The position numbers were made by a program, and so were the translations under genes. This document shows, piece after piece, positions 26,018 to 31,473 of a DNA stretch of 64,000 bases. Numbering within the stretch: position 1 is the stretch's first letter; every line of letters begins with the position of its first letter. Location: the NCBI GenBank assembly GCA_027532555.1, contig JAPZTJ010000001.1, forward strand, positions 62,001 through 126,000, written 5' to 3'. The notes under the pieces are model-generated. The model saw nothing but the letters and a program-made list of their open reading frames with translations. It was not told the DNA's origin and did not search any database. This stretch comes from Aquidulcibacter sp. (GTDB taxonomy: Bacteria > Pseudomonadota > Alphaproteobacteria > Caulobacterales > Aquidulcibacteraceae).

Positions 26018-27445
26018 ATGCATGAAGACGCCGCAACATCCCACAAAGACGATCTGATGGATCGACTGACACCTGTGCAAACGGGCGACGCCGTAGCAGG
26101 TAAAACTCTGTTTATTCAGACTTATGGCTGTCAGATGAATGTCTATGACAGTGAACGCATGGCCGATGTCTTGCGGCCTCTGGGTTATAGCTCGGTTGAT
26201 AAGCCCGATCATGCGAACCTTGTTGTGCTCAATACCTGCCACATTCGCGAGAAGGCGACTGAAAAAGTCTATTCCGAAATCGGACGCTTGAAAGCGCACA
26301 AGGATGAGATGGCGCTCAATGGCAACAAAATGACAATCGCCATTGCAGGCTGCGTTGCACAAGCCGAAGGCGAAGAAATTATGCGTCGTGCGCCGGCTGT
26401 CGATTTGGTGGTTGGCCCGCAAGCCTACCACAAACTACCTGAGCTCATTGCGCGGGCAGCCCGTGCCACTGGCGAGCGCCTTGAAACGAGCTTTGAGGCG
26501 GTAGAAAAATTTGATGCGCTGCCTACCCTGCGTACACCCGACGGGCCATCGGCCTTTTTGTCTGTGCAAGAAGGGTGCGATAAGTTCTGCACGTTCTGTG
26601 TGGTGCCCTATACGCGCGGGGCTGAATATTCGCGGCCAGTGGACCCCATTATTCAAGAAGCACGCGGCCTTGCCCAACAGGGTGTGCGCGAAATCACGCT
26701 TTTGGGCCAGAACGTAAACGCCTATCACGGCCAAGGCCCGGCGCTGGCAGGCTCTGAAACATGGTCCTTGGCCCAATTGGTTCGCCATTTAGCCAAAATC
26801 GGCGGGATCGAACGGATCCGTTATACGACATCTCACCCCTGTGACATGGATGATGACTTGATCGAGGCCCATGGCGAGGTGAAAGAATTGATGCCCTATC
26901 TGCATTTGCCCGTGCAGTCTGGCTCCAACAAAATCCTGAAAGCTATGAACCGGAAGCACAGCGTGGAGAGCTATCTCGATAGTATCGCGAAGGTGCGTAA
27001 AGCCCGTCCGGATGTTGCTTTGGCCTCTGATTTCATTGTGGGTTTCCCAGGTGAGACCGAGCAAGACTTTGAAGATACGATGGAATTGGTTCGCGCTGTT
27101 GGTTATGCGGGTGCCTATAGCTTCAAATATTCTAAACGCCCCGGCACACCTGCCTCGGAAATGTATGGCCAGGTCGCCTCCGACGTGGCCGATGATCGTT
27201 TGCAACGCTTGCAGGCTTTGATCCTTGAGCAGCAGCGCGCCTTCAATGCCGCCAAAGTCGGGCAGACGTTTGACGTGCTCTTTACGGGAAAAGGCCGCAA
27301 TGAAGGCCAGATCCTCGGCCGGTCGCCATGGTTGCAGTCCGTCCATGTTGCGGGGCCAGAGCAATTGATTGGCCAGCTTCACAGCGTACGCATCATTGGC
27401 ACTATGCCGAATTCCCTCACTGGGGAATTGGTGTCAGCTTCGTGA
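26018..27445 (+). CDS. miaB: tRNA-2-methylthio-N6-dimethylallyladenosine synthase MiaB
   Basis: A 475-residue radical-SAM methylthiotransferase acting at A37 of tRNAs. The N-terminal UPF0004 part has [36 protein letters not shown] and AGCVAQAEG, giving three cluster cysteines. The radical SAM motif is [26 protein letters not shown] and [10 protein letters not shown] follow, with a C-terminal TRAM domain (about residues 405-470). All six cluster Cys are present. The stop overlaps the phoH-ybeY GTG (GTGA). It starts the miaB-phoH-ybeY-corC-lnt series. Confidence 0.95.
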
Positions 27446-28938
27446 CGCGTCGTCGCAAGTCTGAAGAGGGCCGCGTCGCGCTCACCAACCCAAGCTTAGT
27501 GCCTGTGGTGGCCGGGCCCGCTCATCGCAATCTGACCTTGGTCGAAGATGCATTTGGCGTTGATGTCACGGCTCAAGGTGGTGATATTCTTGTCCATGGC
27601 GATGATCCCGTGTCTGTTAATCAGGCACGCGAGGCCTTGCAGTCCTTGATCGAAAAGGCGGCAGCGGGGATGGCGTTAGGGCTGCCTGAGGTTCGCTCTG
27701 CCATTACATTTGTGCGTGCCGGGTCGCGTGCGCGTAGCGGGGCGTTGGCTTTACCGGGTCGTCGCGCCGACATCAAACCTAGAACCCCAACCCAGTCTGT
27801 CTATCTAGATGCGCTGATGGGTGGTGAGTTTGATTTGGTTTTTGGCGTTGGACCTGCCGGGACCGGCAAGACTTTTCTAGCAGTGGCCGTCGCCGTCTCG
27901 ATGTTGCTGGAGGGCCGCGTTTCGCGCGTCGTCGTCACCCGCCCTGCGGTGGAAGCCGGGGAACGATTGGGCTTTCTGCCTGGCGACCTTGAAGAAAAGG
28001 TCGATCCCTATCTGCAACCAATTTGGGATGCTTTTAAAACTTTACTGGGTGCCGCCCAATTAGAGCGCCGAAAAGCAGCCGGTGAAATTGAAGTCGCACC
28101 CTTAGCGTTCATGCGCGGTCGTACCTTGTCTGACGCTTTTGTCATCGTGGACGAAGCGCAAAATACCACGCGCATGCAGATGAAAATGCTGCTGACTCGC
28201 CTAGGTGAGGGCTCGCGCATGGCCGTCAATGGCGACCCAAGTCAGATCGATTTGCCGCGCTCCAGCGATTCTGGTCTGCCCCACGCCTTGCGCATTTTGC
28301 GACGTGTAGAAGGGATGAAGATCGTCCACTTCACGGCCGAAGACGTGGTTCGCCACCCACTCGTCGGACGGATTGTTTCGGCCTATGAGCGCGAAGTGGC
28401 AGATGTGACACCCATACCGCCTTCGCCACCGGTAACGCCAGAGCCTATGATGACTGAGGAGTCTGCTTCTTTTGACGTTGATGTCCAAATTGAAACCGAA
28501 GGTTGGCATGGGGTGTTTGGCCCTGATTCCGAAGCGGAAGTCGGCAAGATTGTGAAAGTCGTCTCACGTTATTTTGATCCAGCGGGAGACAGCTTTGCGT
28601 TGCTCATGACCAGCGACGCGGTGGTTCAAGGTTTGAATGCCCAGTGGCGGCATAAGGATCAGCCGACAAATGTCCTGTCTTTTCCGGCACCTGAGACAGT
28701 GCATGCGTTGGAGAAGACGTTGGGTGATGTTGCCCTCGCCTATGAAACCTGTGCGCGTGAGGCCCAAGAGCAGGGCAAGAATCTTAAAGATCACGCTACC
28801 CATCTACTTGTGCATGGGCTATTACATCTTTTAGGATATGATCATGAAGCCGAAGATGATGCGGCGGAGATGGAAGGCTTAGAGAGAGAGATATTGGCAA
28901 GCTTCGGCATTGCTGATCCTTATCACACCCATGACTGA
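27442..28938 (+). CDS. PhoH-like ATPase fused to rRNA maturation endoribonuclease YbeY
   Basis: One uninterrupted frame of 498 residues joins two normally separate neighbours. Residues about 1-320 are PhoH: Walker A GPAGTGKT at 138-144, [20 protein letters not shown], and Walker B VIVDEAQN at 234-241, then [12 protein letters not shown]. Residues about 320-343 are a Pro-rich linker. Residues about 344-498 are Ybe[13 protein letters not shown] and the metal motif with His 458, 462 and 468 ([11 protein letters not shown]). All catalytic residues of both halves are present. The start is GTG 27442 overlapping the miaB stop. Internal ATG codons at 28447 and 28450 could give free YbeY but have no binding site. 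Confidence 0.88.
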
Positions 28939-29863
28939 CGACCCATCCAGTAGTAACTCAGCCAAGAAACCTAGCTTTTGGAAGCGATGGACGCAGAAAT
29001 TGCGTCGCCAGAATGATTATGCCGGCCTAGACCCCGCAGAGCTTCTGCGTGAGCGCGAGCAATCGGGCGAAACCATTGAGCGCAATCAAAAGGACATGAT
29101 CGTCAAAGCAGCCAGCTTTGACCGCTTGTCTGTACGCGATGTGATGGTGCCTCGCGCGGACATTACGGCCGTCGACATCGAAATGCCGCTGGGTGAAGTC
29201 GCCCGCATGTTTGAAGAGCATCAGCATTCACGCATGCCAGTTTACGCCGAGAACCTCGATACACCTTTGGGGTTTGTCCATGTGAAAGACATTCTGTCGC
29301 TGTTGATCCCGGATGAGCAAGGCGAGACCAAAGCTAAATTGGATGATCTTGTGTTGGGTCGGCTTAAGCGCGATTTGCTCTATGTGCCCATCTCTATGAA
29401 GCTTCCGAACTTGTTGCTTCAAATGCGCGCGAAGCGGTGCCACATGGCATTGGTGATAGACGAATATGGCGGCACAGATGGACTTGTGACCATTGAAGAT
29501 CTCGTTGAAGAAATCATCGGCGATATTGATGACGAGCATGACGATCTCGACCAAGATTTAATCGTCGATACCGGCAATGGCGTTTGGGAAGCCGATGCAC
29601 GGGTGGAATTGGATGATTTTTCAGAGCGCGCTGGGGTCGATCTGACGCTGGAAGATATGGAAGATGATATCGACACGCTCGGCGGTTTGGTCTTCGCGCT
29701 TGCAGGTCGGGTGCCTCCGCGGGGCGAAATTCTTCATCACCCAACCGGCTATGATTTTGAAGTGATTGACGCAGACCCGCGGCGGATCAAGCGGGTGCGT
29801 ATCCGTTCTGCGAAGGCAGTCGAAAAGGCTAATACCGATAGTTTGCAGGTACCCTCTGCGTGA
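28931..29863 (+). CDS. corC: CorC/HlyC-type CBS and transporter-associated domain protein
   Basis: A 310-residue soluble protein: a pair of CBS domains ([51 protein letters not shown]) and a C-terminal CorC_HlyC domain ([17 protein letters not shown]). The run [13 protein letters not shown] after the second CBS is typical. The family is linked to magnesium/cobalt efflux or membrane ion homeostasis; no membrane DUF21 domain is present. ATG 28931 overlaps the phoH-ybeY stop by eight bases. Confidence 0.92.
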
Positions 29864-31473
29864 CAGAGGCCGCAGGAACTCTGCCCCAAGCGGCTGAACC
29901 CGAGATCCGTCATCCTATAGCCATCTTGGGGCCAAATAAGCCTGCATGGTTGTCGGGCTTGTCCGCGATGTTGTTGGGCGCGCTCGCCGTACTGGGTCAT
30001 GCGCCGTTCCATTTTTGGCCAGCTTTTGTGGTTTCGATCTGTGGTCTCGTCATCTTATTGGATGGGGCGTATCAGAACAAAAACCGCTTACGCTCCGCCT
30101 TCTGGCGTAGCTGGTCTTGGGGGTTTGGCTATTTTCTGGCTGGGATGTTTTGGGTCGGCAATGCCTTTTTGGTGGATGCAGAGAAGTTCGCCATTCTAAT
30201 GCCGTTTGCGGTTACAGCCCTGCCCGCTGCGATGGGGGTTTATTGGGGCTTAGCAGGCTTAGCCGCGATGTTCATTTGGGGCGCAGGCGCTGCGCGTCTC
30301 ATGACGTATGCGGTTTGCTTTGGCGTCAGTGAGTTTGTCCGCAGCCATTTGTTTACGGGGCTGCCCTGGAACTTGCCCGCCTATATTTGGAAGCCAGGTG
30401 AGGCGATTAGTCAGGTTGCAGGTTTGATCGGGCCATATGGCTTATCGTTTTTGACCCTATGGGTCTTGGCCACCCCAGTGGTTCTTTTGGCAAAGGGCGA
30501 GCCGCGTAAACCACCAATGACCCTGATTGCAGCGGGTATTCTCGCATGTGCTAGCTTTGCTTTTGGCTTTATCCAGTTACGTGCAGCCGGGCCAATTAGC
30601 CCGATGGCCGGGAACGGCCCTATCATCGCGGCCGGGCAAGCAGGCTTTAGCCAAAAGGATGTATGGGACCCGGCCAACACCATCGAGATCGTGGAAACCT
30701 ATCTGGGCCTATTGGATACGCCAGAGGCGCAAAAGGCCGATATTGTCGTTTGGCCCGAGGGGGCATTTCCATTCCTTCTTCTGGAAGAGTCCTTTGTCTT
30801 GGATCAGATCCAAGCCCGTCTGGGCGCACGCACATTGGCGGTCGGTTCAATCCGACGGGACCTTCTGGCCGGGCAGCCAGTCTATACCAATAGCCTTTTG
30901 GTTTTTGACGTCGAGCAGGGTGGTCTGACTACCCGTTCGGTCTATGACAAGCATCATCTGGTGCCATTTGGCGAGTATCTGCCGCTGCGTCCGCTCTTCA
31001 AGGCCCTCGGCATTGCTAGTTTGGTTTCCTATGATGGCGAGATGTCGCCGGGCCCTGAGCCCACGACCTTAAGCCTTCCCAAAGCGCCTTTGGCTGATGC
31101 CCGTATCTGCTATGAGATTGTGTTCCCAAGCTTTAACAAGCAGGCGACTGGCAAAGCCGCATGGATATTAAATGTGTCGATTGACGCTTGGTATGGCGAC
31201 CTATTGGGTCCAGACCAGCATTATGCACAAGCGCGCTATCGGGCTATCGAGACTGGCCTGCCTCTCGTGCGCTCGGCCAGCGGGGGGTGGTCGGCTATCG
31301 TAGACCGGCTTGGTCGCCCCGTCTCAGAGCATCGCGCAGGTGCCGGCTATGCAACTGCTCGTTTGCCGTCTACGGCTGGCCCGACACTTTATGCTCAGTT
31401 TGGAGAGCTTTCGTTTGGGTTTTTGATACTTGGCTTTAGCTTAATGGCGGTTTGGCGACATAAGCGGCATTGA
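29860..31473 (+). CDS. lnt: apolipoprotein N-acyltransferase
   Basis: A 537-residue inner-membrane enzyme adding the third acyl chain to lipoprotein N-termini. Several helices occupy about residues 25-230 and the nitrilase-like catalytic domain follows. The triad is visible: Glu in VVWPEGAFP, Lys in YDKHHLVPFGEYLPL and Cys in ARICYEIVFPS. FFGLPWNLPAY-like TGLPWNLPAYIWKP is the conserved loop. The GTG start at 29860 overlaps the corC stop (GTGA). Confidence 0.94.
   Translation: MTEAAGTLPQAAEPEIRHPIAILGPNKPAWLSGLSAMLLGALAVLGHAPFHFWPAFVVSICGLVILLDGAYQNKNRLRSAFWRSWSWGFGYFLAGMFWVGNAFLVDAEKFAILMPFAVTALPAAMGVYWGLAGLAAMFIWGAGAARLMTYAVCFGVSEFVRSHLFTGLPWNLPAYIWKPGEAISQVAGLIGPYGLSFLTLWVLATPVVLLAKGEPRKPPMTLIAAGILACASFAFGFIQLRAAGPISPMAGNGPIIAAGQAGFSQKDVWDPANTIEIVETYLGLLDTPEAQKADIVVWPEGAFPFLLLEESFVLDQIQARLGARTLAVGSIRRDLLAGQPVYTNSLLVFDVEQGGLTTRSVYDKHHLVPFGEYLPLRPLFKALGIASLVSYDGEMSPGPEPTTLSLPKAPLADARICYEIVFPSFNKQATGKAAWILNVSIDAWYGDLLGPDQHYAQARYRAIETGLPLVRSASGGWSAIVDRLGRPVSEHRAGAGYATARLPSTAGPTLYAQFGELSFGFLILGFSLMAVWRHKRH

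Follow-up and report, generated by a model that had tools for sequence, protein, structure and literature searches.

The closest described counterparts of the locus are the YbeZ/PhoL protein (PhoH family) and the YbeY protein encoded by the ybeZYX operon of E. coli, S. meliloti and P. aeruginosa, which are the same two proteins, with the same intact catalytic motifs, encoded in the same order with corC/ybeX next. In S. meliloti, ybeY lies within a phoH–ybeY–tlyC operon (PMC6943124). The two proteins interact in an E. coli two-hybrid assay (PMC5101352), and in P. aeruginosa YbeZ binds YbeY in pull-downs and loss of either impairs maturation of the 16S 3′ end (PMC7327168). In all of these operons they are two polypeptides, whereas in Aquidulcibacter they are one, with a short disordered linker.

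Two other arrangements bear comparison. YbeY–Era fusions are known from Clostridia, some Selenomonadales and Thermoleophilum (PMC10582724). There too YbeY shares a polypeptide with a second 30S assembly factor with which it interacts, but this factor is the GTPase Era and YbeY is N-terminal, whereas in Aquidulcibacter it follows the PhoH ATPase on the C-terminal side. In PhoH2, the RNA 5′–3′ helicase PhoH is joined to an N-terminal PIN-domain RNase. PhoH2 thus gives a precedent for a PhoH ATPase and an RNase in one protein, although its RNase is the PIN domain and not YbeY; the Aquidulcibacter protein misses the cut-off of the PhoH2 equivalog NF053827 (103 against 680 bits) and is not assigned to that family. 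A literature search, outside which lay most subscription papers and the InterPro architecture tables, found no PhoH–YbeY fusion.

The phoH–ybeY frame and its domains

In the window, the 64,000-nucleotide stretch of Aquidulcibacter DNA that was analysed, phoH and ybeY form a single uninterrupted frame of 498 codons at 27442–28938 on the forward strand, to which all the coordinates below refer, with a product of 53.8 kDa. The frame starts with the GTG at 27442, which overlaps the stop codon of miaB as GTGA, and ends with the TGA at 28936–28938; there are no other stops from 27304 to 28938. The earlier note had read this frame as PhoH and YbeY with intact Walker A/B and three-His motifs joined by a Pro-rich linker, and each part of that description holds: both domains are complete and the linker, of about 25 residues, is predicted to be disordered.

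The PhoH/YbeZ ATPase domain occupies residues 111–316 (27772–28389; Pfam PF02562, E 1.3e-86, 289.8 bits against a cut-off of 27) and the PhoH part of the AlphaFold model matches PDB 3b85 (PhoH) in Foldseek. The Walker A motif, GPAGTGKT, is at residues 137–144 (27850–27873) and the Walker B region, VIVDEAQN, at residues 234–241 (28141–28164); the key residues of the former and D237, E238, Q240 and N241 of the latter do not vary among the aligned fused proteins. The region preceding the domain (residues about 20–100) is also predicted by AlphaFold to be folded, and this N-terminal domain, together with the operon place between miaB and ybeY/corC, identifies the PhoH part as the YbeZ/PhoL type rather than the short PhoH.

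The YbeY endoribonuclease domain spans residues 344–498 (28471–28935). It is recognised by the NCBIfam equivalog TIGR00043 (residues 366–491, scoring 126 bits where the cut-off is 45) and by Pfam PF02130 (residues 384–487, E 1.3e-31, 109.6 bits against 25), and Foldseek matches it to E. coli YbeY, 1xm5 (E 5e-11, TMt 0.85), and also to 7y7o and 1oz9. The metal site, a three-His site of the HGxLHLxGYDH type, lies at residues 458–468 (28813–28845); all the aligned fused proteins have its three histidines and a catalytic-type arginine, Arg403. The site is intact, and the YbeY part is a predicted RNase of 16S 3′-end maturation. In the AlphaFold model the two domains are well folded, with residues 324–340 between them at pLDDT < 50.

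The fusion protein is the only YbeY in its genome. A second PhoH gene there (L002, G000:C61:23761–24363) is a short paralogue, a 268-aa open frame that lacks YbeY and shows 52% identity over the ATPase domain; a second PhoH-family match also occurs in the other fused genomes searched. The locus is a genuine ybeZ(phoH)–ybeY fusion, and we consider it likely that its single polypeptide performs the ancestral role in cis.

The linker and a putative internal ybeY start

The Pro-rich linker (residues 319–343, 28396–28470) differs strikingly in its evolution from the domains on either side. In a comparison of seven Aquidulcibacter genomes the linker has a dN/dS of 0.42, against 0.016 for PhoH and 0.05 for the first part of YbeY. 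Between lineages both the length and the sequence of the linker differ while the reading frame is always kept. The linker evolves like a translated, weakly constrained spacer between strongly constrained domains.

One short block departs from this pattern. The sequence CCAGAGC-N5-ATGA at 28438–28453 is invariant in all seven Aquidulcibacter genomes, and outside it the linker (codons 319–342) is nearly unconserved among them. Only three of the 24 third positions in the linker are invariant, and they lie in its CCA, GAG and ATG; the clustering gives p = 0.00035 in a scan-statistic permutation, for a block that was recognised after seeing the data and in seven closely related genomes only. The ATG (28450–28452) encodes Met337, and a start there would give a YbeY of 162 aa and 17.8 kDa. 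In several unfused relatives, too, phoH and ybeY overlap as ATGA, and the block is a probable relic of a ybeY translation start, or one that still functions. A sigma-70 promoter-like match at 28423–28451, over the internal ATG, was rejected as it is not conserved in relatives.

If the old start still works, the gene would have two products, the full-length fusion and free YbeY, and some free YbeY may be made in this way in Aquidulcibacter. In favour of this, strong nucleotide conservation in the linker, third positions included, is confined to the block, its ATGA has the form of the junction in several unfused relatives, and the protein N-terminus from Met337 resembles a normal YbeY start. The ATG is, however, not preceded by a canonical Shine–Dalgarno sequence and is absent from Ca. 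Phycosocius and from G025, another fused member of the family; the case depends on few and close genomes and a block picked post hoc, which could be an unconstrained relic. On balance, we put two products at somewhat below an even chance. More tentative is the fuller proposal that, after at least two origins of the fusion within the family, Aquidulcibacter has kept an internal ybeY start under selection, so that tethered enzyme and free YbeY would be made in a set ratio. A dual-product fusion, if real, would be a natural test of whether 16S 3′-end maturation requires the ATPase to be attached to the RNase.

Distribution and origin of the fusion

The fusion belongs to a small set of freshwater bacteria. 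Each of the nine genomes of the genus (Aquidulcibacter and Candidatus Phycosocius) encodes YbeY in frame with PhoH, among them the complete chromosome CP012156.1, A. paucihalophilus TH1-2, Ca. Phycosocius bacilliformis and Ca. Phycosocius spiralis. Two further members of the family, G014 and G025, both incomplete assemblies (87% complete), are also fused. In the other family genomes examined, including G016, which is nearest to the fused G014 and is itself unfused, phoH and ybeY are separate, usually overlapping or abutting, or the operon phoH is missing (the genus g7, considered below). In one family member the YbeY match is split over two frames (G053:C5:627250–627596), which may reflect a frameshift or a pseudogene.

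A profile search with the fused protein covered 387 alphaproteobacterial genomes and 259 further Pseudomonadota (partly overlapping), together with 130 genomes from the phylum to which a Lacticaseibacillus belongs and 130 from that of an actinomycete. Fused proteins would be expected at the top of the match ranking; among the matches listed, that in the genome under study was the only full-length one free of stops, and no fusion was found outside the family in these about 870 genomes of three phyla. The PhoH–YbeY fusion is rare. Each of the ten matches listed in a plasmid search joins two pieces, as separate genes would, and in the two with both genes annotated phoH and ybeY are given separately. 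Five genomes (G268, G292, G216, G132 and G029) appeared to be fused from the length of the frame between stops, but translation puts phoH and ybeY in different frames; stop-to-stop length alone yields false fusions in high-GC Caulobacterales. A separate peculiarity was seen in five genomes of the actinomycete phylum sample (G1055, G1059, G1074, G1086 and G1151), where the PhoH match, lying within long open frames, is interrupted near residue 228; in G1151 the two halves are about 1 kb apart. The pattern resembles that of an intein or another in-frame insertion.

The tree of MiaB, CorC and Lnt requires three changes of fusion state. A single clade of all fused genomes is rejected (p-AU 9e-6) and therefore fusion arose at least twice, or arose and was followed by re-splitting. 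On the tree G025 appears as an independent second origin; with a clade of the genus plus G014 borderline (p 0.037), G014 is probably a third. Unfused relatives typically have phoH and ybeY directly adjoining or overlapping by a few bases, several with ATGA, GTGA or similar junctions. Given such a stop/start overlap in the ancestral genes, one indel can fuse them, and the recurrence of fusion is therefore less remarkable than at first sight. The fusion would have been made by an indel, after which the stop/start overlap of the ybeZ(phoH)–ybeY pair was read through.

The ease of this route raises the question of whether the fusion is neutral, overlapping neighbours having drifted into one frame and the tether being tolerated without functional consequence. 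Dozens of Pseudomonadota have both genes in the same frame, interrupted by just one to three stops within the match, and the sequence of the linker is barely constrained, as would be expected were it neutral. Yet despite the easy route the fusion is absent, among the matches listed, from the about 870 other genomes, so that it is either not freely tolerated or seldom fixed, and it has been retained through the divergence of a whole genus. We regard neutrality as an explanation that deserves consideration but is less likely than not. A sequencing or assembly artefact, that is, a stop or frameshift missed in the linker, is excluded and its probability negligible, because the same open frame is found in nine genomes, one of them the complete chromosome CP012156.1, and the linker varies in length only by multiples of three.

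Probable function of the tethered pair, and its operon

On the favoured reading, a true fusion acting in cis, a short flexible linker would tether the YbeY metallo-endoribonuclease to the PhoH-type ATPase, which has an N-terminal domain of its own. As an ATPase of the RNA-helicase type, PhoH would deliver YbeY to its target or remodel RNA for it there, the target being either immature 30S particles or the 3′ end of the 16S rRNA precursor, and the tether would fix the ratio of PhoH to YbeY at 1:1. We infer the rRNA role and the cooperation of the fused domains by analogy with the separate proteins.

A genus related to Aquidulcibacter within the family, g7, has lost the operon phoH and kept ybeY. 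In the four g7 genomes read (L097–L100, G017–G020), miaB is followed directly by ybeY–corC–lnt, and in the five searched, which include G021, the short PhoH paralogue elsewhere is the only PhoH kept. Thus g7 is a natural lineage with YbeY and without YbeZ, and its loss of the operon phoH counts against a strict need of YbeY for its partner. The earlier note had called the fusion direct evidence that PhoH and YbeY act in the same place, probably in 16S rRNA 3′-end maturation or ribosome quality control. It does fit the published YbeY–YbeZ partnership, but the evidence is supporting rather than direct, since one indel can produce the fusion, g7 keeps ybeY without the operon phoH, and an internal start may free YbeY. 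The fusion supports the known partnership and leaves the view of the function of the two proteins unchanged.

What YbeZ/PhoH does alongside YbeY is still poorly understood, and the family offers a comparison of fused (Aquidulcibacter, Phycosocius), separate (most genera) and lost (g7) operon PhoH, with YbeY kept in all. While this reveals no new pathway by itself, it makes the contribution of PhoH to YbeY directly testable, and the naturally tethered pair is a construct of fixed stoichiometry for structural studies of immature 30S particles.

The gene order around the fusion is miaB–[phoH–ybeY]–corC–lnt. Upstream is miaB (26018–27445; TIGR01574, 503.5 bits), and the overlap of its stop with the fusion start is also present in the fused genomes. 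Downstream, corC/ybeX (28931–29863; CBS and CorC_HlyC domains) has an ATG that overlaps the 3′ end of the fusion and is followed by lnt (29860–31473; LNT_N and CN_hydrolase). A stretch at 28780–29020, covering fusion codons about 447–498 and the first about 30 codons of corC, shows extreme synonymous conservation among the seven Aquidulcibacter genomes and is in part common to Ca. Phycosocius. Up to 19 of 20 third positions are invariant and dS falls to 0.14 from about 1.4 in the rest of the gene, making this the most conserved stretch of the operon. It has no Rfam or promoter matches, folds with less structure than shuffled sequences (z +1.66), and contains no overlapping open frame common to the genomes across its whole length; it may serve corC–lnt as an internal promoter or regulatory site.
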